In this document: positions 2,438-16,870 of the stretch, one piece after another | Position numbering within the stretch: position 1 is the stretch's first letter | Layout: each line of letters starts with the position of its first letter | Virus record (IMG/VR): IMGVR_UViG_3300045016_000055 | Location: 1 to 26,015 of that record | DNA: 26,015 nt | Source: a virus | Reading direction: 5' to 3' (one strand) | The notes under the pieces: model-generated | Told to the model about the DNA's origin: nothing | The model's input: only the letters and a program-made list of their open reading frames with translations | Database searches by the model: none | Position numbers and translations under genes: made by a program

Positions 2438-3391
2438 TTACCCCCTGTAAACTCCCAAGAATTTTGTCATGTTTTTTCTGTATTCGGAAAGCTCTCCATT
2501 GGCATACGATAATGACGATTCAAGGTTCCGGATGTGTTGCCTAAGAGACTCGAGTTCGGTTCTTTCTTTTTCCCGTCTTTCCATGTCTTTCGCATGGGCT
2601 CTGATATCGGCCACCTCGCAAAGTTTTGGGAATTTCTCAAGGATCTCGTCAATGCTTTCCTTCATTTTCTGAATGACCGTGAGCATGTCCCTACTGTTCT
2701 TATCAGAGAAAGACAGAAGCGCTTTAACTACGGACGACGAGAGTTCCGAGCCCTGCCTTGAAATATGATCGTTGATTTTTGAAACCTCCGAGAACCTTTC
2801 AAGGATCGATCGGAGAATTTTGTGGGTTTCCCCAAAATCAACTTTTTCCGGGGCCGGGATCTTAATTCCAGAAACCGCGCTTTTTACATCGGAAACAGCC
2901 CTTAAAACCCCTGTAAAATCAATTTCCTGCGGCACAACCACGTTCTGCGGCGGTATCTTTATCGAACCGACAGAATCCCGCACCCCCTCCAAGATCTCTC
3001 GTTTTAGGGCATCTGTGTCGATTTCCTTGATCTTCGGAGTTTTTCGCTTTAATGCAACGTCGATATGATTTATTATCGAAGCGTTCAATCCGCGGAGAAG
3101 AGTCCTTATTTCATCGGTCGTTTGCCCAACCGTGTTCCCAACATCGGGATTTATGCTTTCCGCGGCGTATCGGATCGAAGCGTCTCCGGTATCCCAAAGC
3201 ACGAACCCTTTAAAATCTTCCGCTACGGAAATTAACGCCCGGTAAATCCCGGTGCTTGCCGCGATCTGGGCGACCCCGGACGTTGATCTTGCCTGAGAAA
3301 CGGCTCCGACAGAATCGTAGACTGTATACCCGACCGTAGAAAGCCCGGCTTTTGCGGCTCCGAAATTCGCGGTTGTTGCCAATGTTCTCAT
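2438..3391 (-). CDS. Virion-associated coiled-coil protein, unknown function
   Basis: 317 aa from ATG 3391. I chose this start because GGGGGATCAA lies just upstream and the ATG shares an ATGA junction with the upstream membrane gene; a longer form from 3433 lacks such support. Residues 1-75 form a compact beta domain ('GYTVYDSVGAVSQARSTSG', 'GIYRALISVAEDFKGFVLWDTGD') of a type often seen in phage proteins next to tail genes. The remainder is largely helical and charged, with a clear coiled coil near the C terminus ('RREKERTELESLRQHIRNLESSL'-like, about residues 270-310). No transmembrane segment. Position between membrane proteins and the adaptor suggests a virion or internal head protein, but I do not recognise a specific function. 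Confidence 0.7.
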   Translation of the reverse strand: MRTLATTANFGAAKAGLSTVGYTVYDSVGAVSQARSTSGVAQIAASTGIYRALISVAEDFKGFVLWDTGDASIRYAAESINPDVGNTVGQTTDEIRTLLRGLNASIINHIDVALKRKTPKIKEIDTDALKREILEGVRDSVGSIKIPPQNVVVPQEIDFTGVLRAVSDVKSAVSGIKIPAPEKVDFGETHKILRSILERFSEVSKINDHISRQGSELSSSVVKALLSFSDKNSRDMLTVIQKMKESIDEILEKFPKLCEVADIRAHAKDMERREKERTELESLRQHIRNLESSLSYANGELSEYRKNMTKFLGVYRG

Positions 3392-3768
3392 TTGATCCCC
3401 CAATAAATTATACCAAACGCTGTCCAGTACCAAGTGAAGCAGATTAGCCGGGTCAGAAAATCGTTCTTCAGGAGCTTAAAGAGCCATGATTCCTTCCCAT
3501 AAGAAGGCGCAATCTTGACCATAAATGGCAAAGCAAGAAAAATACAGCCCCCAACACCCATATAAAAAGCAGATAAACAAACAACAAAAGGCACGCCAGC
3601 CCATCTAAAAATCTTCGCACCATTTGACCACCCCCCAAGCCTCCAAAGAATACCGCAGACGAGCATAACGGGAAGAATCCACCATCCCACGATGAAGTAG
3701 AGCGGGAACTGTAGACAAGCCCCGATAAAAAACTCTTCTTTATTGTTCCAGAAAGAATCTTCGCTCAT
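3388..3768 (-). CDS. Small multi-pass membrane protein (126 aa)
   Basis: Start taken at ATG 3768 because it overlaps the stop of the upstream gene as ATGA; the longer upstream open frame (to 4029) only overlaps the neighbour and lacks a start signal. The protein begins MSEDSFWNNKEEFF and has three to four hydrophobic stretches: about residues 15-45 ('FPLYFIVGWWILPVMLVCGIL'-like), 55-85 ('GVPFVVCLSAFYMGVGGCIF') and 105-125 ('ICFTWYWTAFGIIYWG'). It is rich in Trp and Phe. Together with its upstream partner, also a membrane protein, it may act at the host inner membrane in lysis, superinfection exclusion or DNA entry. No specific family recognised. Confidence 0.72.
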   Translation of the reverse strand: MSEDSFWNNKEEFFIGACLQFPLYFIVGWWILPVMLVCGILWRLGGWSNGAKIFRWAGVPFVVCLSAFYMGVGGCIFLALPFMVKIAPSYGKESWLFKLLKNDFLTRLICFTWYWTAFGIIYWGIK

Positions 3769-4097
3769 ATTCGGCTTCCAAAAAAGTAGGAGGCGATCTC
3801 CCAAATAGCAACACCACCCATGATCCACGCTCCCCAAAACCAGACCCACCACCACAGGTCTTTGCTTTTGGCAATCGCCCGCCAGATAAAAAGACCTTCT
3901 AGGAGCGAGGCGAACACAATCATACAGATCAAAGCTATCCCGGTGAAAGTGCCGCTCATGAAAAAACAAAAGTGGTAACACAAACTCACAAACGAAGCAA
4001 GGAGCAACCCGACCCCAACACAAGCCCACACAGGGTCAATTCGATACCACGCTTTCCACCGATTCGTTAGCGTAACTCGTTTTCCTTCTTCTGCCAT
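3765..4097 (-). CDS. Small multi-pass membrane protein (110 aa)
   Basis: ATG 4097 follows the stop of the 42-aa Trp-rich gene by three bases and its stop overlaps the next start (ATGA), so it is part of a coupled chain. Short charged N terminus (MAEEGKRVTLTNRWKAW), then hydrophobic segments near residues 23-45 ('WACVGVGLLLASFVSLCYHF'), 48-72 ('GTFTGIALICMIVFASLLEG') and 80-105 ('WWWVWFWGAWIMGGVAIWE'). Very Trp-rich like its neighbours. Probably an inner-membrane protein made with the downstream 126-aa protein; function unknown. Confidence 0.68.
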   Translation of the reverse strand: MAEEGKRVTLTNRWKAWYRIDPVWACVGVGLLLASFVSLCYHFCFFMSGTFTGIALICMIVFASLLEGLFIWRAIAKSKDLWWWVWFWGAWIMGGVAIWEIASYFFGSRI

Positions 4098-8200: not shown

Positions 8201-9800
8201 ATGTTTCTGCGGCTAATATGCCTATGACCCCATTAGAAGAAGATGGGAATGCTGCCCCCGTATATCCCCTTCCAAAAATAGCCGATATATAATCCCCCGA
8301 TTGAACTACTGCGGGACTGGCGATTGTTCCTCTTGCTCTTCTCCCAACCGTGCCTCCTGAATAATTTGTGTTTGAATATACATCAGAATAAATGGCGACC
8401 TCATCTTGCTTAACAACATGAAGCGAACTGGTTGGACTCGTCGTTCCTATTCCAACATTGCCATCTTTTATAGTTAAAGTATCTGCCGCACCATAAGTTG
8501 AAAATGTCATTCTTGCGGTAGAACCTTCATCCATTGTATAGATTCTGCCTACTTCTGTTGAAGTGCTCTCAACGAACTTTATCTGTATGCCTGCCCCAGT
8601 GCTTGAACCTGAAGTGCGAAGTCTTAAAAATTCTTTATCAGTATTACCTGCGGCATTATAGATTTCCAATGGAGTGGAAGGACTTGTTGTTCCTATGCCA
8701 ACATTGCCTGACCCAAGAATAGTCATTAATTCTGTTGCATAGTTCTTAAATTGGAAAACAGGTTCAGTAGAACTGAGTGCTTGAGCGGCAGTTCCACTTT
8801 TCTTTGCCCCAGCAAAAACAAGGGCGGGGGCTGTAACTGTAGTATCGCCAACTGTGCCTCTAAAGTAAAATGCAGTTGCATTAGAGTCGCTCAATCCATC
8901 AATTCTTAGACCGCCTGCTGTTCCATTATAAGGGAGCACCCCACCATAAACATTTGTAGGGTAGAGGTCCGTCATACCGTGAGCAACATCAGCATCGGAG
9001 AGATAAAAACTCCCGTCCTTCAATTCCAATTTTTCTTGTGGACTTGTCGTTCCTACACCGACAAAACCAGCATTAGTAATTCTCATTCTTTCGGCAGGGG
9101 TTATAGAACCGTCGGGAGTTGTAAGGAAAGTTAGATTTCCCGGCATATCACTTGAGCCAGGTGTAGCATCTACTTGGCTTAATATTCTTGCTCCGTTTAC
9201 TCGGGAAGTTCCACTCCAGCCTTGAAAGTTAATAGCCCCAAGTGTATCTCCGCTTGATACTATCGTAGGAGACGCTATTGTTCCTCTTGCCTTCAAAAGA
9301 TTGAGTGCGGGAGCAGTAGCACCAGTATCAGATGCGGCAATAATTCTTTGAACTGTTGAAGAGTCGGTAGCAATATCAAGCGAGTCCGAAGTAGGAGCAA
9401 GAGAAACACTTGGCGAACCACTTGTTATGGTCACCTTTTTGTTCGTCGTATCAAAGATTACAAAATCTGTTCCGTCCGCTTGGGCGATATTGATTGCAGT
9501 AGTGGAATTTGCGGAGGGACGGATGTCGTTTCCCGCAGTGAGATTAAGATTGCCCGTCATCGTGTTATCGCCGTTTAAGTGGAGAGAGAGCGGATCGGTT
9601 TCCGCTGATACAATGGTCAAATTATCTATTGTATCGAGCGCTTTTTGAACATCGGTGTCCGCTGGAGAAAGATTCCCGTTAAAATTAGTCGTGTCAGTTT
9701 CTATCTCCGCGGCGAGAGAATACACCGCCTGAGAATCCGCAAACGCAGGCTGACAAGAAATGAGAAGAAAAGGAATTGCAAGAATCCAGAGTTTTTTCAT
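5289..9800 (-). CDS. Large repetitive tail fibre / receptor-binding-like protein with signal peptide
   Basis: 1503 aa, ATG 9800 with AAAGG upstream, sharing an ATGA junction with the preceding methyltransferase. Residues 1-22 (MKKLWILAIPFLLISCQPAFA) look like a Sec signal; LISC also fits a lipobox at Cys16. Residues 30-780 contain beta-rich fibre segments with four 'VGIGTT(S/A)P' type motifs, frequent in phage fibres and bacterial adhesin-like proteins. A Gly-run linker (about residue 825) leads to a second half, about residues 860-1430, made of 7-9 repeats of 'SIDPxNRxLYxSDGTxxxDW'. I see no S74 chaperone at the C terminus, which ends ITIEEGIITAYTTVP. It probably binds a receptor or decorates the virion; the signal peptide is odd for a virion protein. 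Confidence 0.68.
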   Translation of the reverse strand: MKKLWILAIPFLLISCQPAFADSQAVYSLAAEIETDTTNFNGNLSPADTDVQKALDTIDNLTIVSAETDPLSLHLNGDNTMTGNLNLTAGNDIRPSANSTTAINIAQADGTDFVIFDTTNKKVTITSGSPSVSLAPTSDSLDIATDSSTVQRIIAASDTGATAPALNLLKARGTIASPTIVSSGDTLGAINFQGWSGTSRVNGARILSQVDATPGSSDMPGNLTFLTTPDGSITPAERMRITNAGFVGVGTTSPQEKLELKDGSFYLSDADVAHGMTDLYPTNVYGGVLPYNGTAGGLRIDGLSDSNATAFYFRGTVGDTTVTAPALVFAGAKKSGTAAQALSSTEPVFQFKNYATELMTILGSGNVGIGTTSPSTPLEIYNAAGNTDKEFLRLRTSGSSTGAGIQIKFVESTSTEVGRIYTMDEGSTARMTFSTYGAADTLTIKDGNVGIGTTSPTSSLHVVKQDEVAIYSDVYSNTNYSGGTVGRRARGTIASPAVVQSGDYISAIFGRGYTGAAFPSSSNGVIGILAAETFNAGATGTYITFETTPNLSTTRAERVRITNAGLVGIGTTAPSNSAMLDVASGVMSIVVGADNNVAVTRTNATNKSARVGAYHYTNAEEPVGIFLATSSSTANSVSFGGGSALFNTATQMSFYTAADTTTTTGTERLKIVSDGEIQILVDGTSGAAGCLSFGAGQDGQILHSGTIFSIQSDATTATDSLLLRGGTNGIDFNIGATEQITLTDGKLAPTTNNDIDLGDSTHKFKDGYFAGKLTVDGEIDPTAVDFLQITTPANPAANHNKIYFKSDDKLYKLTSAGVESEVGGGGGGGETLAQTLALGNTTGGYDIDFNASGDVIVGNSYTSIDPYGRTLHDSSGNETAGWSSGYLTIGSSGNAYISAGANGVMSLYSSDSVSGGSWEMLQLDANLGVKLVSDPFAANGQHIYLKDGTGSGGGNLYLDAGKLYWGTSGFYAADESGYVNFYSSSGLMFFYDSSALKIPSDKYLNMQGGELRFESGSKIKDGSNTSIDPYNRYLYDSSGLPTLDWDYNGDVTPLHTLDMGSANMKFTSGSYTITDGSATSIDPFNRQLLNSNATCTFDWNGSGTNIGLSIQTTGQARFYSELQDSSGDGWFLPSTRALTDASDNALISLADNVNAYLYYNSGDSRWHFTKDIDTTIQTIYADDIVMGSGALIKDGSNTSIDPYNRKLYAIDGTSVRYDWENNQIYDNAGTPRLSIDPNARKIYSYDGTVLIDYSNQYFAIMPELAVGYIHDSTWAPKIQLDPSYLGAWGEGFVPALDWSTRKLYASDGTTAVIDWTNTLNALVPLSFSSNDIVISSNIDDTSNFKSIDPNNRKLYASDGSTAVLDWSSNYLISTPEVSTSYISTSSNIIKIDVNNSQFGLWGASFVPALDWASRILYASDGTTAILDWSTDGTAEFGDNNVETDGALTISGQSRVSSGGFTTTTNNAGVSSGGAITVHNSGTSGELATITIEEGIITAYTTVP
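5500..7220 (-). repeat. Coding direct repeats in the fibre gene (SIDP-x-NR-x-LY-x-SDG-x-DW units)
   Basis: Within the fibre gene a motif of about 30 codons recurs, centred on Ser-Ile-Asp-Pro, Asn-Arg, Leu-Tyr, Asp-Gly-Thr and Asp-Trp. Clear copies are near 7200, 6710, 6545, 6190, 6090, 5880, 5750 and 5540. DNA identity between copies is visible, for example 'gggtctatactggt' at about 6198, 6551 and, with one change, 6717. Spacing is irregular because other beta segments are interspersed. These are protein-level repeats of a trimeric fibre shaft or similar, not a CRISPR. Confidence 0.8.
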
Positions 9801-10519
9801 TTTAGACCTTTCCTCATGATCAAATGAAAATCGTTCTTGTAAAGAAACCGAGGAGAAAGATTCACGACCTGAGCAAGCGGCTCTCTCTCAAATCCGTTCT
9901 TAAAAAAAGAGTTTTTCATGTTTTCCAGCGAGTACATGGTCCTGTTCTCGATCCCCCAATGACCGAAGTCCTTGAACCCAGTCTCGATCGCGCTCCCGGC
10001 ATCCGGGGCCATGACGAATACCACGCCTCCCGGCTTAACGAGTGCCGCGGCCTTCTCAATCGCTTTCTCAGGATCAGAAAAGGATCCAACGACATGATGA
10101 AGGATCACGAGGTCGTACATGTCATTAAACTCGAATTTCTCGAAATCCCCGGTGATATAATCGTTTTTGATGAGATCGATCCCGTCCGAAAGCCAACCGC
10201 GATCGCGCATATTAAGAATGTTTTCCGGGAACCCGAACCCGACATCGAGAGATTCCCGGCCGTAGGTCGCTTCCTCAATGATCGGCATGTAGACGCGCCT
10301 TGGATAATCAATGCGGTCCTGAAAGAACTTCGCTTCCCGGATCTTTGCGAGATATCCCGGCGTGAACCGTTTCTGGTCCACCGGGCGATCGTGATAGATC
10401 ACCCCGCACCGGCAGAAGAAATAAACGAGGTCCGTCCCTTCCGGGCTCCGCATCGTGTACTTCTGCGCCGGGATCCTATTACAAATTCTGCATCTGGATA
10501 GCGTTTCCTGAGTGTTCAC
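9797..10519 (-). CDS. SAM-dependent methyltransferase with N-terminal Cys zinc site
   Basis: 240 aa, GTG start at 10519 preceded by GGAG. N terminus has C10xxC13 and C36xC38, a likely zinc ribbon common in sugar-pathway class I methyltransferases. SAM-binding motif I is LDVGFGFPEN (91-100), followed by 'YDLVILHHVVGSF' (135-147) and 'LVKPGGVVFVMAPD' (160-173), typical of the Methyltransf_23 type. It overlaps the upstream GT9 gene by 41 bases and the fibre gene by 4. As the last gene of the sugar cassette and directly before the fibre, it probably methylates a sugar or a modified virion component; the substrate is unknown. Confidence 0.85.
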   Translation of the reverse strand: MNTQETLSRCRICNRIPAQKYTMRSPEGTDLVYFFCRCGVIYHDRPVDQKRFTPGYLAKIREAKFFQDRIDYPRRVYMPIIEEATYGRESLDVGFGFPENILNMRDRGWLSDGIDLIKNDYITGDFEKFEFNDMYDLVILHHVVGSFSDPEKAIEKAAALVKPGGVVFVMAPDAGSAIETGFKDFGHWGIENRTMYSLENMKNSFFKNGFEREPLAQVVNLSPRFLYKNDFHLIMRKGLK

Positions 10520-11516
10520 TTTTTACTCCGAATTTTGATTTTACGGTTTCGATCTTCTCTTTTACGAGGTCTGGCCGGATCCCTTTCGACATACAGACCG
10601 GGATAAGACTGAGCCGGTCCACGGGGCATTGAGTGGACGCTTTGTAAATAAGACGGAAGCACGGGGAGCATGGCGCGAGGTGCTCATCCGCTTGTAGAGA
10701 GAAATCGTTCACGAAATGTTTCGTGAGGTTATTGAGCGTATTCGACCCGACAAGCCCGATCTTTGGAGTGACGTAACAGCCGGCGGCATGTAAAAGGCCG
10801 GTATCCGGGGCCACCACAAGATCCGCGTACTTACAGGCGAGCGCCGCTTCGCGCATGGACCAGATCCCGGACCGGTTCACGACACGCTTATCCTTGTGCT
10901 CGAGCGCCTGACAGAGCTCGTCCCCGGTCGTGATGAATACGATATCGGGATGATCCCTTAGGAGTTCAGCCATGACATAATCTGTGTAGGGGTACGCCTT
11001 ATGGAGCGCGGAACCGGATAGCCCCCAAACAATGACGAACCTGTTCCTAAACTGCTCGAACCATTTCCGCATCGAGGTCTCCTCTTCCTCGGAAAAGAAA
11101 AGTTCGGGAAGAAAGCTTTCAATATGCGTGTTTTGCTCAACGCCGGCATAAGTAAAGGTGTGCTCGTAAAAGTTCTTGTCGCACCGCGCGCGCCGCTCGT
11201 CTTTCGATAGGTTATACGCCGGGTCGATCGGATGAAGAGAGATCGCGCGCTCGAGACTCTCGCAAAGATTGATTAGTTTGTCGCACCCTAGATTATTTTT
11301 CAGCATATTCCAATGCTCGACCAACTTATCGTCTGGGACGGAGTTCGCCACATACGGAACGAACTGGTCAATGTTCGAGTTCTCTTTCAGGACTTTCATT
11401 CCGATCTCTGAAGTGTGGAGGACGATCGTATGCCCCTGCCTCTTCAGGAACCTTAAAAACGGAGTGATCACGATCGAATCACCCCACGCTCCGAGACGAA
11501 CTACGAGTATCTTCAT
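10479..11516 (-). CDS. Glycosyltransferase family 9 (heptosyltransferase-like)
   Basis: 345 aa. N terminus MKILVVRLGAWGDSIVITPFL is the donor-domain start typical of ADP-heptose:LPS heptosyltransferases (GT9). The second Rossmann domain carries 'ADLVVAPDTGLLHAAG' (231-246), the GT9 nucleotide-sugar binding signature, and 'VIVWGLSGSALHKAYP' (161-176). C-terminal to this is a four-Cys module, C283xxC286, C297P and C308, also present in the other GT9 of this cassette. Start overlaps the upstream GT2 stop as ATGA. Probable sugar transfer onto a glycan in the host cytoplasm; donor and acceptor cannot be told from sequence. Confidence 0.88.
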   Translation of the reverse strand: MKILVVRLGAWGDSIVITPFLRFLKRQGHTIVLHTSEIGMKVLKENSNIDQFVPYVANSVPDDKLVEHWNMLKNNLGCDKLINLCESLERAISLHPIDPAYNLSKDERRARCDKNFYEHTFTYAGVEQNTHIESFLPELFFSEEEETSMRKWFEQFRNRFVIVWGLSGSALHKAYPYTDYVMAELLRDHPDIVFITTGDELCQALEHKDKRVVNRSGIWSMREAALACKYADLVVAPDTGLLHAAGCYVTPKIGLVGSNTLNNLTKHFVNDFSLQADEHLAPCSPCFRLIYKASTQCPVDRLSLIPVCMSKGIRPDLVKEKIETVKSKFGVKSEHSGNAIQMQNL

Positions 11517-12322
11517 ACGATTATTTCCGGCACTTTTTCGGTTTCTTTTTCTTCATAATGAAACTCCAGTTTTCCCCATTTCCCCATCTGTTGATTGATC
11601 GGGATCGCGCCTAAAATCTCGTTCATGGCCGCCCCGAACCATTTCGAGGCGAATATCTTCTGGTCCGCGTAGGGAGTGATCCCCATCGGAAGCCATGTGC
11701 AGGACTGATGGTGGAACACCTTCGACTTCGGTTCCACGACCACCGCGAACTCCTGAAAGATAGCGCGCAGGCAATAATCGTTATCGGAGTTATGATTCCG
11801 CATTTTCTCGTCGAGAAGCCCTGTCATTTCGACGCAATCCTTGGACAGAAGCACGGAACAGAACGGAAACCACACGCATTGAACCGGTTCCTTGAACGCG
11901 TCCTTCTCCTGAGAGGCGTACACAAGCCCTGTCGTGAGGTCCGCGCCTCCGGCCGCTTCCCGGTACGGTTCCCAAGACCCGATCCTTGTCGAACCAACGA
12001 CCCCGATCCTTTTATCGGATTCCGCAAGCTCGACCAAGGATTTCACGAAATCCGGCTGTCCCTCAGCGTCATTGTTCAGGACAAGCACATAATCATAATC
12101 AAGACGGAGCGCCCTAAGCCCCTCATTCACGGCTTTTGTAAAACCCGAATTATTCGGGATTCTGATTGTCTCGGTGAGAGAGTTTGAATAGGGACGCTCG
12201 CTACCGTCATCGATCACAACGATCCTGACGGGTATTCCTGCGTTTTTAAGAACATACTCAACGCACTTATCGGTAAGATCCGCGTGGTTGAACATGGGTA
12301 TAAGAACGACAACCTTTTTCAT
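11513..12322 (-). CDS. Glycosyltransferase family 2
   Basis: 269 aa GT-A fold enzyme. Key motifs: MKKVVVLIPMFNHAD start; IDDGS (37-41) for nucleotide binding; 'IPNNSGFTKAVNEGL' (55-69); LNNDAE (82-87) in place of the usual DxD metal site; 'GLLDEKMRNHNSDNDYCLR' (168-186), the acceptor/catalytic region of rhamnosyltransferase-like GT2 enzymes; 'VFHHQS' near 203. Start and stop overlap neighbours as ATGA junctions. It likely adds one sugar in the glycan assembled by this cassette. Confidence 0.9.
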   Translation of the reverse strand: MKKVVVLIPMFNHADLTDKCVEYVLKNAGIPVRIVVIDDGSERPYSNSLTETIRIPNNSGFTKAVNEGLRALRLDYDYVLVLNNDAEGQPDFVKSLVELAESDKRIGVVGSTRIGSWEPYREAAGGADLTTGLVYASQEKDAFKEPVQCVWFPFCSVLLSKDCVEMTGLLDEKMRNHNSDNDYCLRAIFQEFAVVVEPKSKVFHHQSCTWLPMGITPYADQKIFASKWFGAAMNEILGAIPINQQMGKWGKLEFHYEEKETEKVPEIIV

Positions 12323-12696
12323 GCTACGACCCCTCTCGCTTTAAGACGCAGGAAAAGATCGTGTGCGTCACGCTCCGTTTTCTGGAACCGGCGCTTCTGT
12401 CGCTCGATAAAATTCTCTGCCCGGTATTCTGAGCTTGCGCGCATCTTCTCGACATGTTTTAGCCAACGGATATGATAATCCCAGCAAAGGGAGTTCCCAC
12501 AGTGGGACGGTTCCCCGCGCTTCTCATCCCACCGTTTCTCGAGGATATACCGCTCGATATTCTGGAGCGACCACGAGAACCATTTCCCGCAGATCGGGCA
12601 TTTCATCTCCCCGCACACGGGTTTCCCTTCCTTTCGGAACCGATATCCAAGGAAATTCCCTTTCTGTTCCTTCCAACTGTCCATGACTACCGGCAT
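12319..12696 (-). CDS. Zinc-finger-like hypothetical protein in the sugar cassette
   Basis: 125 aa from ATG 12696, with GGAGG nine bases upstream; ATG 12684 is a weaker alternative. Contains CGEMKCPICGKWF (about residues 28-40), a CX3-4CX2C site, and further Cys near 'SHCGNSLCWDYH' (64-75), giving a likely zinc-binding fold. The rest is basic and helical (EKMRASSEYRAENFIERQKRRFQKTE). No membrane segment. Coupled to both neighbours by overlaps, so it is co-expressed with the glycosyltransferases. It could be an accessory or nucleic-acid binding protein; I do not recognise a family. Confidence 0.7.
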   Translation of the reverse strand: MPVVMDSWKEQKGNFLGYRFRKEGKPVCGEMKCPICGKWFSWSLQNIERYILEKRWDEKRGEPSHCGNSLCWDYHIRWLKHVEKMRASSEYRAENFIERQKRRFQKTERDAHDLFLRLKARGVVA

Positions 12697-13172
12697 ACGA
12701 GGATCCCTCCGAGCCCGTTCTGTCTTTTGTCGTAAAAGTATTCAAGATTGTTCTCGACGCAGAAATTCGCGACCGCGATCAGGACCCCATCACAGTTCAT
12801 GTCATGGAGAAGGATCACCCCTCCCGGCCTTACTCTTGGAGCCCAAAGCATGAGTTCATTCGTGGTATGCTGAAGTTCGTGGTTCGTGTCGATGAACAGA
12901 AGATCGATCGAGTCGTTCTCCATCCCGACCATGAGACTGTCCGATTGAATAAAAACGATGTGCGGCTCGTACTCCCCTTTCATCCACTTGCACCGGGGCC
13001 GGCAATCGTCCTTATCGATCGTAATGACGCGCCCCCCTGTTTTCATGGCGGCCTGAACGAGCGTGTGCGTGGATTCCCCTTCCCGGGTCCCGAGCTCCAC
13101 GATCCGCGTCGCCTTGAGATACCGGACCCACGCCGCGAGAAGAGGAAGATGTTCGTCAATATCACTTGGCAT
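12687..13172 (-). CDS. Class I SAM methyltransferase (Methyltransf_24-like)
   Basis: 161 aa. SAM-binding motif 'RIVELGTREGESTHTL' (23-38), acidic residue in 'VITIDKDD' (49-56), 'SIDLLFIDTNHELQHTTNE' (88-106) and 'VRPGGVILLHD' (114-124), the pattern of O-methyltransferases such as the CmcI/Methyltransf_24 group. Shorter than average, close to a minimal Rossmann domain. Overlaps the upstream fusion gene by 11 bases and the downstream Cys-rich gene by 10. Likely sugar O-methylation within this cassette. Confidence 0.85.
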   Translation of the reverse strand: MPSDIDEHLPLLAAWVRYLKATRIVELGTREGESTHTLVQAAMKTGGRVITIDKDDCRPRCKWMKGEYEPHIVFIQSDSLMVGMENDSIDLLFIDTNHELQHTTNELMLWAPRVRPGGVILLHDMNCDGVLIAVANFCVENNLEYFYDKRQNGLGGILVCR

Positions 13173-14724
13173 TTAAAATTGCCTCCGTTTTATTGAACCG
13201 CGTGTCCCGCCACTTCAGGTACACTTCCCAGATCCTCGATTTCAGACGCTCTTTCGGGTGACCTTCCGAGATACAGACCGGGAGATTGAACTGTTTGTCA
13301 AGCGGACATCCTTCCGTTTCATGGACGAGCCGGTGGCAGGGATGGCACGCCGCCTCGCTTTCCAAGGAATAGTCATTCTTCCAGTATTTCGTGAGGTTCT
13401 CTTTTGAGGAATGGGTCAGGAGACAGATCTTTGGAGTATCAAACGCACTCGCGGCATTGATCACCCCGGACTCAGGGCCGATCACGAGGTCCATAACGGA
13501 CGGCATGATGATCGATTGCCGCCAGAGCCATTGTCCGATCCGGGGATGGATCTTCTTATTCTCAAAATCGAGCATCCGTATCTCAGGCCCCCCACAAAGA
13601 TAGAACTCGATCTCCGGGATCTCGTCCGCGAGCTCGAGCATGATCTCGTCGGCAAACGGATAAATCTTGTGCCATGAACTGCCGGCAAGCGCCCATTGAA
13701 CGAGGAACCGCCCTTTCTGTTTCTCTCTGAATAAATGGATCATGTGCTGTTCGTATTCCGAAAGATAAAGCTCCGGGTTCCTGCCGGTGATGTGGCCGTA
13801 CCCTCCGAGCGCGAGGATCCAGTCCGTGTAATTGATGTTGCATCGTTTCTCGCGCGCCCATTTCGGGAGATTGAATAAATGCGCGTCCTTCGGCTCAAGG
13901 AGAAGCGTCCTCTCGATCGATTCGCAGAGGTTTATGAAAAGATCGAACTTTTTCTTCAGAACCGCGTGGTATTCGTGGAGGTGCGTGGTCGGGATCGTGT
14001 ATTTCTCGATCAGAAGAAGGTCGTCCACGCACGGACTATTCTCATAAACGCATGCCGTGGCCGGAGTGCAGTTCACGGTCACATGAAACCCGTCGTTTTT
14101 AAGTGTGCGAAGGAGAGGAGTGACCTGGATCGCGTCCCCGATCGCGCCGTACCGGCACACCACCGCTGTTTTCTGTTTCGGTTTCGCTTCTTGAACCTGA
14201 AAGGGCGACAAAAATTCGGATTTTAGCTTCTTTGCCACGATCAGGAACGAATATTCGTCCCCTTCCGAGCAGGTCTCGCACCGCTCGAGGAAGAACGGGC
14301 CTATGCTTTCGAGGATTTTAATGACATCTTCGGGTAAAAAATCGTGTTTGTGCCTTGGATTTGCGTCCGGATGCCCGACATTCGGGTAAAGGTCCTTATG
14401 CGGAAGATATAAAATGAGCCGGCCGTCTATTTTGAGGACCCGGAACATGTCTCTCAGGAGTTCTTTCGGGAACGGCATGTCCTCGAGACAATGGGATGAG
14501 AACACCACATCAAAGAAATCGGAAGAAAACACTTTGAGAGGGTTCGGGCTCGAGAGATCGAGAAGAATATCAGCCGGGGCGAAGAGATCCACTCCTACCG
14601 CGGCCGGAACGATCTTCTCTGACCCGCACCCGACATCGAGAATGGACCCGCGAAGGAGTTCCGCGATCCTTGGACGGACCTTCCGTTGCTCGAACCCCTG
14701 CGAAGTTTCAGCTTTCCAAACCAT
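13162..14724 (-). CDS. Fusion of SAM methyltransferase and GT9 glycosyltransferase
   Basis: 520 aa, ATG 14724 with TTGGAG upstream. Residues 1-165 are a Methyltransf_11-type domain: 'SILDVGCGSEKIVPA' (27-41), 'FFDVVFSSHCLEDMPFP' (70-86), 'LKIDGRLILYLPH' (97-109). After a short linker, residues 185-520 are a complete GT9 domain: 'KTAVVCRYGAIGDAIQVTP' (185-203) and 'MDLVIGPESGVINAAS' (411-426). The tail carries C460xxC463, C473P and C484, as in the neighbouring single-domain GT9. No frameshift or stop between the halves. It is the first gene of the cassette, just after a hairpin. Confidence 0.88.
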   Translation of the reverse strand: MVWKAETSQGFEQRKVRPRIAELLRGSILDVGCGSEKIVPAAVGVDLFAPADILLDLSSPNPLKVFSSDFFDVVFSSHCLEDMPFPKELLRDMFRVLKIDGRLILYLPHKDLYPNVGHPDANPRHKHDFLPEDVIKILESIGPFFLERCETCSEGDEYSFLIVAKKLKSEFLSPFQVQEAKPKQKTAVVCRYGAIGDAIQVTPLLRTLKNDGFHVTVNCTPATACVYENSPCVDDLLLIEKYTIPTTHLHEYHAVLKKKFDLFINLCESIERTLLLEPKDAHLFNLPKWAREKRCNINYTDWILALGGYGHITGRNPELYLSEYEQHMIHLFREKQKGRFLVQWALAGSSWHKIYPFADEIMLELADEIPEIEFYLCGGPEIRMLDFENKKIHPRIGQWLWRQSIIMPSVMDLVIGPESGVINAASAFDTPKICLLTHSSKENLTKYWKNDYSLESEAACHPCHRLVHETEGCPLDKQFNLPVCISEGHPKERLKSRIWEVYLKWRDTRFNKTEAILNAK

Positions 14725-15263: not shown

Positions 15264-16118
15264 TTAAGCGGAAGTCACACGCACGATTCTCTCAATCCCC
15301 TTACCGGTCGAATTGAGGTCATCGCTCGTGAGATCCCAAGTTTTCTTGAATTGCAGGATGGCGAGCCACCCCACCTTCCGGGAACGGCCCAGATCCGTGG
15401 GGACATCGGCCACCGTGTACTCCGGGACCGCGATCGCTTCGGAAAGGGCTTCATCCCCAAAGAAATACCCGTTTCCGTATGCCGCGGAAGAACCCACGCC
15501 GTCCGACAGGAAAGCGTTGTCCTCCATGAACCGGCAATCGTAATACTTCCCGACCTCGGAGTTGTAACGATACTCCGGTTCGGTGTACTGCGCGATCGCC
15601 TGAAGGTAGTCGTAAATCCCGCGACAAGACTTGATCGAGAGAATTGCGCCGTAATACCCTTTCCGGCCCCCGATCTTCGGGATCTGTTTCCCCTTCATGA
15701 AATCCACGAGATCGCGGACGTTCTTATCCGAAATGCTCGCGCTTGCGGTCGCTGTTGCTGTGCCGTTGCTCGTGAGGATCGTGGAAGCGGTGCTCGTTGC
15801 GACGGCGACAAATTTCGCCACCGTGAACGGCACGCTCGCCGCGCTATCCAGAACTTCGGCCTGATCGTCCCTGAGGCCCTTCAGGAAGATGTTGTTCGGA
15901 TCCCATTCCGCGAGATCCTCGAGCTTTTTGGTGTATTGGACTGAGTTGCCCCACTCCGCTACGACCACGGAATCTTTCACGATCTTGATGAGGTTTGACG
16001 GGACCGTGGAGGTTTCGGTGAGTGTGCCGCCCTTGGTATCGATGCGGAGCACTTTATCGAAATACACGGTATCGCCGGAATTGCGGCCTAACCCCTCATC
16101 CTTGATCTGCGCGAACTG
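15264..16118 (-). CDS. Major capsid protein, 3' exon (N4-gp56-like family)
   Basis: Exon 2, 284 codons plus stop, starting QFAQIKDEGLGRNSGDTVYF. Joined to exon 1 (16772-16870) it makes a 317-aa protein. The '(R)QFA..KDE.LGRNSGDTV.F.KV.RI' segment followed by 'WGNSVQYTKKLEDLAEW' is characteristic of N4 gp56-like capsid proteins with the HK97-type fold. An in-frame TAG lies directly upstream at 16119-16121, so this part cannot be translated from exon 1 without splicing. A GTG at 16067 is an internal codon, not the real start: 17 conserved residues precede it. It assembles the icosahedral shell with the scaffold protein encoded upstream. Confidence 0.85.
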   Translation of the reverse strand, partial: QFAQIKDEGLGRNSGDTVYFDKVLRIDTKGGTLTETSTVPSNLIKIVKDSVVVAEWGNSVQYTKKLEDLAEWDPNNIFLKGLRDDQAEVLDSAASVPFTVAKFVAVATSTASTILTSNGTATATASASISDKNVRDLVDFMKGKQIPKIGGRKGYYGAILSIKSCRGIYDYLQAIAQYTEPEYRYNSEVGKYYDCRFMEDNAFLSDGVGSSAAYGNGYFFGDEALSEAIAVPEYTVADVPTDLGRSRKVGWLAILQFKKTWDLTSDDLNSTGKGIERIVRVTSA

Positions 16119-16771
16119 CTACTCTGTTACCACGGCGTTATGCCGCGACAGCCATCGTTTCCGGGCTGTTCTTTCTGTCTCCAGAAAGTTCGGAACATAT
16201 CATCCCGTTTCCGGGGGAGGCGTATGTTCTCTGAGGATCCTTGAATCGGCTCACGATTTCAAAATCGGATTTGGTATACCATCCTCTTTTGGAAGATATC
16301 CGCTTTGTTACAAACTCGATCATAATCTTGGCCCGATGCTTTTTCTCTCCCGCTAGATTGGGTTCGAGAATTTCGAGAAGTTTCTTAATGTGTTCCATTC
16401 TCGAAATTGTTGCATACACGATCGGGCGGATTAAATGACCGTGTTGGTTCGGCATCCGTTCTACCACATACGGGTTAATACCTATCTTGCGAAGAAGATC
16501 GATATATTTCTTCACGATCCCTCCGTCGGTGTTTCCCATAGTGACCTGAACTTCAACGCCTTTTCCTTCCCACTTCCCGATTTTTTTGTGGCGATTACTC
16601 ATAATGATCGAGCCTTCGCCATCAATCAAACCAGCAAGCCATCCGATTTCTTCTTCCGTTAAAGTTTCCTGCTGATTGACACCGTGAACAGAGGATTTTT
16701 CCATTGGTAGGACCTCCGTTTTTTGATGTTGTTCCAGCATATAGTCTCCTTTTACTATCGCCAATTCGTCA
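16119..16771 (-). ncRNA. Group I self-splicing intron inside the major capsid gene (653 nt)
   Basis: Helices seen by eye, in RNA sense. P1: exon CUAUCGU (16772-16778) with guide GCGAUAG (16755-16761), U.G pair at the 5' splice site. P10: CGAAUUG (16762-16768) with exon 2 CAGUUCG (16112-16118). P3: GGAGGU (16712-16717) with GCCUCC (16216-16221). Q-like element AAUCAGCAGG (16669-16678), possibly pairing with UCUGUU (16687-16692) as P4. R-like element CUCAGAGAACAUACG (16221-16235). P7: GAACAU (16224-16229) with AUGUUC (16193-16198). P8: CCCG-GAAA-CGGG (16204-16215). P9: CUUUCUG-GAGA-CAGAAAG (16171-16188). The last intron base is G (16119), as the class requires. Carries a LAGLIDADG gene. Confidence 0.9.
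16138..16740 (-). CDS. LAGLIDADG homing endonuclease encoded in the intron
   Basis: 200 aa from ATG 16740, with AAGGAG six bases upstream; a longer form from 16782 would begin in exon 1. One LAGLIDADG motif, 'IGWLAGLIDGEGSI' (residues 32-45), so it probably works as a homodimer like I-CreI, cutting the intronless capsid gene to drive intron homing; the two acidic residues in LIDGEG are present. Then 'VQVTMGNTDGGIVKKYIDLL' and 'RMEHIKKLLEILEPNL...KIMIEFV', the expected helix/sheet pattern of the family. The last 35 codons run through intron helices P7-P9 and the stop lies 19 bases before the 3' splice site, so protein and ribozyme share sequence. Confidence 0.9.
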   Translation of the reverse strand: MLEQHQKTEVLPMEKSSVHGVNQQETLTEEEIGWLAGLIDGEGSIIMSNRHKKIGKWEGKGVEVQVTMGNTDGGIVKKYIDLLRKIGINPYVVERMPNQHGHLIRPIVYATISRMEHIKKLLEILEPNLAGEKKHRAKIMIEFVTKRISSKRGWYTKSDFEIVSRFKDPQRTYASPGNGMICSELSGDRKNSPETMAVAA

Positions 16772-16870
16772 ACGATAGACATACATCGGAAGCGCCTGAT
16801 TCCTCAGTTGCTTCGACAGTTTGTTGTTCGTCAGGTTCCCGCCAAGTGAGTTGGTTACCCAAAGTTGCAT
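16772..16870 (-). CDS. Major capsid protein, 5' exon
   Basis: 33 codons from ATG 16870 (AAAGG upstream): MQLWVTNSLGGNLTNNKLSK and on to ...ALPMYVYR. The 'WVTNSLGG....NKLSKQLRNQA' start is typical of capsid proteins of this family. Reading on without splicing hits TGA immediately after the last Arg codon, at the first three intron bases. The spliced junction ...MYVYR|QFAQIKD... restores the normal family sequence. The last seven exon bases form P1 with the intron guide sequence. Confidence 0.8.

Follow-up and report, generated by a model that had tools for sequence, protein, structure and literature searches.

Introns in the major capsid protein (MCP) genes of phages are precedented. In mycobacteriophage LittleE, gene 13 (the MCP gene) contains an intron whose splicing Pope et al. 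(2013, PMC3706429) demonstrated by RT-PCR and N-terminal sequencing, and a capsid-gene intron of Tuc2009 is mentioned, as a citation, in the same article. The LittleE element is a probable group I intron with a U at the exon end, a G at the intron end, and a LAGLIDADG-like ORF, so that the combination of an MCP intron with such an ORF is already described. Endonucleases within introns are also known from the T4-type introns (td, nrdB, and nrdD), of which td is described as a case in which delaying translation of the endonuclease helps splicing.

We analyzed a 26,015-nt stretch of an uncultivated viral genome (IMG/VR record IMGVR_UViG_3300045016_000055; here, the window), in which the MCP gene is very probably interrupted by a self-splicing, self-spreading group I intron. 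The locus shares with LittleE the host gene, the terminal bases, and the type of ORF but differs in its MCP and phage type; according to the LittleE text, the endonuclease-like ORF of that phage lies on the opposite strand, whereas that of the window lies on the sense strand, where it overlaps the ribozyme core. Like the T4-type introns, the element carries its endonuclease gene within the intron, but it differs from them in showing no P7.1/P7.2, in encoding a LAGLIDADG rather than a GIY-YIG or HNH enzyme, and in its host gene. The P7-P9 segment of a sister intron (L071, see below) matched introns in 370 cultured-phage records, many of them T4-like.

The interrupted capsid gene and its intronless relatives

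All features of the gene are on the minus strand. Exon 1 (16772 to 16870) comprises 33 codons (MQLWVTNSLGGNLTNNKLSKQLRNQALPMYVYR; last codon, CGT) and aligns with the N termini of intronless MCPs. Exon 2 (15264 to 16118) encodes QFAQIKDEG...TSA, followed by the stop codon. The 653-nt intron between them (16119 to 16771) starts with TGACGAATTG and ends with ...GTAACAGAGTAG, the terminal omega G being position 16119. The initial annotation correctly stated that the unspliced gene ends after 33 codons: the first intron codon, TGA, follows exon 1 directly. Joining the two exons gives an ORF of 317 aa.

The phrog_1357 profile (major head protein) matched both exon 2 alone (E value, 3.4e-11) and the spliced protein (5.8e-14; residues 8 to 290). 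A search of the MCP sequence against PDB gave no match; an HK97 fold is indicated by the predicted structure of a 61%-identical orthologue (L075, modeled with its relatives), which resembles phage capsids, including that of HK97. Upstream of the MCP gene are genes for a terminase, a portal protein (SU10-like according to Pfam), and a scaffold-like protein, i.e., the usual head-gene arrangement. No second MCP copy was found within the window (a virus record of only 26 kb). A near-identical record (IMGVR_UViG_3300024333_000019) showed four differences over 8,852 nt, none of which was inside the intron. Between the head and tail genes, the window also contains a block of methyltransferase- and glycosyltransferase-like genes (9797 to 14724), including a 520-aa ORF (13162 to 14724) that seemingly combines methyltransferase-like and heptosyltransferase-like parts.

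The spliced protein aligned end to end with intronless MCPs without a gap at residues 33/34, consistent with the proposal of the initial annotation that splicing restores the capsid reading frame. In tblastn searches, residues 2 to 317 were recovered in one piece in Vibrio phages (e.g., as a single HSP in Vibrio phage D279), and residues 2 to 284 were matched in Escherichia coli phages PTXU04 and Bas95. Among intronless relatives, the closest (L075; 61% identity over residues 2 to 317) reads continuously through the junction (...YVYRQFVNIK...). We fetched 80 IMG/VR relatives by best score, a selection that biases the set toward uninterrupted genes; one was the near-identical record of this phage, intron included, and the other 79 had no interruption at this position. 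Of these 79, 78 were continuous across the junction, with no residues encoded by the proposed intron, and the remaining one (L081) begins at residue 85. Taken as a whole, the comparative sequence evidence here and below supports the identity of the insertion as a group I intron, both of its ends, and the MCP gene as its host.

Ribozyme core and intron-encoded endonuclease

P1 and P10 could be drawn as previously proposed. In P1 (7 bp), the exon strand CUAUCGU (16772 to 16778) pairs with the internal guide strand GCGAUAG (16755 to 16761), and the U of the U.G pair at the splice site is the last exon base. In P10 (7 bp, one G.U), the guide strand CGAAUUG (16762 to 16768) pairs with the first bases of exon 2, CAGUUCG (16118 to 16112). 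Downstream of the guide, the 5' strand of P3 (GGAGAC, 16744 to 16749) is followed by a P4-P5-P5a-P5'-P4' domain (16670 to 16739) that was present in the minimum free energy (MFE) fold and in a partial match to the Rfam group I model. This domain consists of P4 (16739-16734/16675-16670), P5 (16729-16725/16683-16679), and P5a (16720-16713/16694-16687), and many of the 56 loci recovered by a motif search share its core motif. The 3' half of the core contains P7 (GAACAUA, 16223 to 16229, with UAUGUUC, 16199 to 16193), the 3' strand of P3 (GCCUCC, 16216 to 16221), P8 (CCCG-GAAA-CGGG, 16204 to 16215), P9 (CUUUCUG-GAGA-CAGAAAG, 16171 to 16188), P9.1 (16148 to 16169; loop CGGAAACGAU, the same as in L071), and P9.2 (16131 to 16147).

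Unguided folding by RNAfold recovered P1, P4, P5, and P5a (z score, -2.6) and, in the 3' part, P7, P8, P9, P9.1, and P9.2 (z score, -4.0; none of 200 shuffled sequences was as good). The P7, P8 (GAAA loop), and P9 (GAGA loop) helices of the initial annotation were thus recovered, while its P3 contains one A.C mismatch in the window. Pairing of P3 was examined across 18 introns that had been picked without using P3 and in which its two strands are mostly >400 nt apart; 95.4% of the cells were paired, versus 57.5 ± 4.4% with shuffled partners. Relative to the family consensus GACUA/UAGUC, P7 of the window carries two compensatory changes. No P7.1/P7.2 was seen in the window, which argues against subgroup IA2.

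At the gathering score, Rfam gave no match in the window. The group I model RF00028, which had been suggested as a check on the intron, matched in two pieces (14.6 and 10.9 bits) below the cutoff of 50, since P6 is interrupted by coding sequence of about 430 nt; among relatives, the same model scored 79 bits for an intron with no ORF (L025) and 35 bits for one with an ORF (L003). We built a covariance model of the 3' core (P7 and P9) from 19 relatives, leaving out the window. This model had a single significant match in the window, at 16236-16168 on the minus strand (54 bits; E value, 9.4e-13; next best, 6.8 bits). In the 19 relatives, 93% of the cells were paired (70% when shuffled; 0 of 500 shuffles reached the observed value), and 53 double-sided changes were present, compared with 17 in shuffles.

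The initial annotation recognized the group I element but missed an ORF within it for a LAGLIDADG homing endonuclease (16138 to 16740, minus strand; stop codon, 16140-16138). Because it carries this ORF, the intron is probably mobile. The ORF has two possible starts, AUG 16740-16738 (200 aa) and AUG 16704-16702 (188 aa). Its product matched Pfam LAGLIDADG_3 (PF14528; E value, 2.6e-6) with the motif LAGLIDGEG, and a profile of 12 endonuclease relatives matched I-MsoI, I-CreI, and I-CvuI. In an AF2 model (pLDDT, 82), for which Foldseek returned I-CreI (9e-8), the protein combines the LAGLIDADG motif, including an acidic residue, with the alpha-beta-beta fold. I-CreI, I-MsoI, and I-CvuI originate from algal organelle introns. 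The window protein shares the fold and the single LAGLIDADG motif of these homodimeric enzymes but is only about 17 to 22% identical to them, and its tail is encoded by ribozyme core. A search with the protein against cultured phages gave no match.

This tail consists of the last 29 residues (152 to 180 of the model), which are disordered. It begins at 16227, within P7, and its coding sequence (16141 to 16227) runs through P7-P3'-P8-P9-P9.1-P9.2, so that the ribozyme core itself is translated into the tail. The C termini of many relatives also read through the conserved core (e.g., SETTR from UCC UCA GAG ACU ACA CG). At the other end of the ORF, AUG 16740 is preceded by a Shine-Dalgarno-like AAGGAG (16751 to 16746) that overlaps P3, and AUG 16704 is preceded by GGAGG (16713 to 16717), which is fully paired in P5a in the MFE fold. 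The predicted structure suggests that folding of the ribozyme may hide the endonuclease start, and with the two possible ribosome-binding sites paired in P3 and P5a, folding and endonuclease synthesis are expected to compete.

Occupancy of the same site and alternative readings

The same boundary (R|QF, the bar marking the insertion site) is occupied in at least four other uncultivated viruses. Related introns with LAGLIDADG ORFs interrupt orthologous MCP genes in L067, L071, and L072 (whole introns) and L031 (5' half only). All four were recovered from IMG/VR by a core-motif search (TGCTGGAA...TCAATCAGCAGG) that was independent of the host gene. The last codon of exon 1 is CGT in all five intron carriers, while each of the six Arg codons occurs at this position among the intronless relatives (CGT, 30/79). 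P1 covaries with the exon, being UAUCGU/GCGAUA in the window and UUCCGU/GCGGAA in the other four; their guide sequence therefore differs from that of the window and matches their own exons. The 3' intron ends follow a common pattern (AACA...G|CARTTC), and the omega G is also terminal in the L067, L071, and L072 introns. P10, with 7 bp in the window and 5 bp in L072, was weak in L067 and L071, and we rejected it as a conserved requirement. Together, the same-site introns with their CGT codon, P1 covariation, and 3' pattern represent the strongest evidence for the predicted splice sites. The intron bounds proposed initially (16119 to 16771) are supported by these four contigs, P1 covariation, and the intronless orthologues.

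The four introns share the P4-P5 motif and the 3' end pattern with the window. Their MCPs are only 34 to 36% identical, and their endonucleases only 24 to 27% identical, to those of the window. The endonucleases are too divergent for us to claim homing at R|QF by one conserved enzyme, and the sequences appear compatible with both common descent and repeated entry, which they do not distinguish.

The established gene structure, RNA architecture, site homology, and endonuclease fold can be joined in one explanation that we consider highly probable, namely, a mobile MCP group I intron that would combine splicing, homing, and translational competition. In the late transcript, the ribozyme would fold, and an external guanosine would attack at 16772/16771, directly behind the U of the P1 U.G pair. 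Exon 1, once freed, would then attack after omega G 16119, with P10 aligning exon 2, to restore the frame ...YVYR|QFAQ.... In intronless phages, the I-CreI-like endonuclease would cleave at, or close to, CGT|CARTTC in the MCP gene, and the intron would be copied into the gene during repair of the break. With the possible ribosome-binding sites of the endonuclease paired in P3 and P5a, the splicing fold would compete with endonuclease synthesis and hold its output low in the capsid mRNA.

The capsid protein usually ranks among the proteins that a phage makes in the largest amounts. Ribozyme activity, and with it the dependence of the capsid on a ribozyme suggested in the initial annotation, is what we infer from these features. 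If splicing occurs as predicted, each virion would rely on an efficient ribozyme, and the mobile element would have to restrain its own endonuclease within that abundant transcript. The R|QF site, occupied in five different phages, offers a natural series for studying homing into a capsid gene.

Less probably, the insertion is a real group I intron whose endonuclease acts as a maturase or is an inactive passenger, so that the intron spread only by descent or by RNA-level reverse splicing. Some LAGLIDADG proteins are maturases (e.g., in Thermotoga, PMC3984707), the endonuclease tail has drifted into the core, and the same-site endonucleases are only about 25% identical. Given the LAGLIDGEG motif, the I-CreI-like domain modeled at high confidence, and the occupation of the same site in different phages, we regard such a history as unlikely and favor the mobile intron.

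It is far more doubtful that the intron is dead, the gene being a decaying or defective copy or its two parts being made as separate peptides. Phages are known to have split genes that are not spliced (PMC7344957, which also cites a report that the split NrdA of phage Aeh1 is made as separate peptides), and P3 has its mismatch. However, the core helices are all intact, with the two changes in P7 compensatory, the endonuclease ORF is open, and the intron is unchanged in the near-identical record IMGVR_UViG_3300024333_000019. Furthermore, exon 2 lacks a listed start codon near its beginning; the first is GTG 16067, 17 codons in.

A group II intron or IStron-like composite is highly improbable, even though group II introns are mentioned among phage elements in PMC12350094. 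No group II family was matched in Rfam, LAGLIDADG was the only family match of the intron ORF (i.e., no transposase or reverse transcriptase), and the U at the exon end, the omega G, and P1/P10/P3/P7 are group I features; we rejected this reading on the basis of the Rfam result and the ORF. LAGLIDADG domains are common in inteins, but the chance that the insertion is an intein or another in-frame element is negligible, and we rejected it because the insertion does not stay in the reading frame of the host gene (its first codon is TGA, and the endonuclease lies in another frame) and contains a group I core.

Host genes of related introns in uncultivated phages

Surveys list DNA polymerase, terminase, ribonucleotide reductase, and thymidylate synthase genes (PMC11878797) or terL, nrdD, and polymerase genes (PMC12363816) as intron hosts, and we found no report in the open-licence literature of MCP as the main intron host gene. 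In our core-motif search, the exon 2 proteins behind 15 of 20 other distinct introns matched major head families (phrog_1357, 267, 283, 2522, and 1328); the remaining five comprised one major tail protein, one portal protein, and three proteins with no match.

Given that the first motif was derived from the window, we repeated the census in IMG/VR with a 3'-core motif, which is blind to the host gene. Among the matches listed, a nonrandom sample, 82 nonidentical exon 2 ORFs of at least 90 aa were counted, and 31 of these were MCP genes (SU10-type, 9; P22/phrog_267/283-type, 9; Mu gpT-type, 7; and those of L173, L208, L221, L251, L192, and L209). Cluster members beyond the scanned representatives were assigned by phmmer linkage. 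As a control, we used 76 random ORFs from the same contigs, located at least 1.5 kb away, with intron-adjacent genes excluded. No major-head family was present among the 25 most-matched PHROGs of these ORFs; phrog_240 ("head protein") occurred twice and Phage_cap_E once in Pfam, and the total was rounded up to at most about 3/76. The difference (31/82 versus 3/76; Fisher P = 1.3e-7) refers to this nonrandom sample and to a control covering the 25 top families only. Related contigs share insertion sites, and the 31 MCP genes therefore represent a smaller number of events; when homology clusters were counted instead, the MCP share was 8/46.

These exploratory figures suggest that such elements favor MCP genes. 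We lean slightly toward the view that, in uncultivated phages, group I introns with this core reside preferentially in MCP genes and do so in several MCP families and at many sites. As speculation on the cause, RNA-level insertion perhaps finds its easiest target in the abundant late capsid mRNA, or this mRNA is the one that best tolerates introns. If upheld by proper sampling, the census would alter the picture from cultured phages, whose reported introns lie mainly in polymerase, terminase, ribonucleotide reductase, thymidylate synthase, and lysin genes. It is also a warning that virome annotation will overlook split capsid genes or cut them short.

Other insertion sites were observed in the same MCP family, one following GG (around residue 11), one immediately preceding QPLMKFRQF, one following NTIP (around residue 74), and one close to the C terminus (L037, L110, L056, and L150). 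Vibrio phage 1.232.O (MG592596; L008) likewise has a group I core in an MCP gene of this family but differs in its C-terminal site (VAW|Y) and in an HNH ORF located after exon 2. Its MCP gene seems interrupted near the 3' end (3329 to 3770; model R1, 36.6 bits at 3525 to 3617), and exon 2 (YLGGFGISHNN...) follows farther downstream; the annotation gives a truncated MCP, and no intron is among the annotated features listed. In L003 (2881 to 3513; contig shared with L016), an MCP intron has a frame-restoring junction, KIVQ|FRQR, that would set the start of exon 2 within the P9 stem, the exact splice base being ambiguous. A related intron with a LAGLIDADG ORF lies in a small cold-shock-protein-like phage gene (MARGKVKW...GYGFITGNDGKDVFCHF) of L034 (1 to 800). 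Finally, group I introns occur serially: L043 has three Rfam matches, L046 has three copies of the core motif, and the MCP gene of L026 contains two introns.
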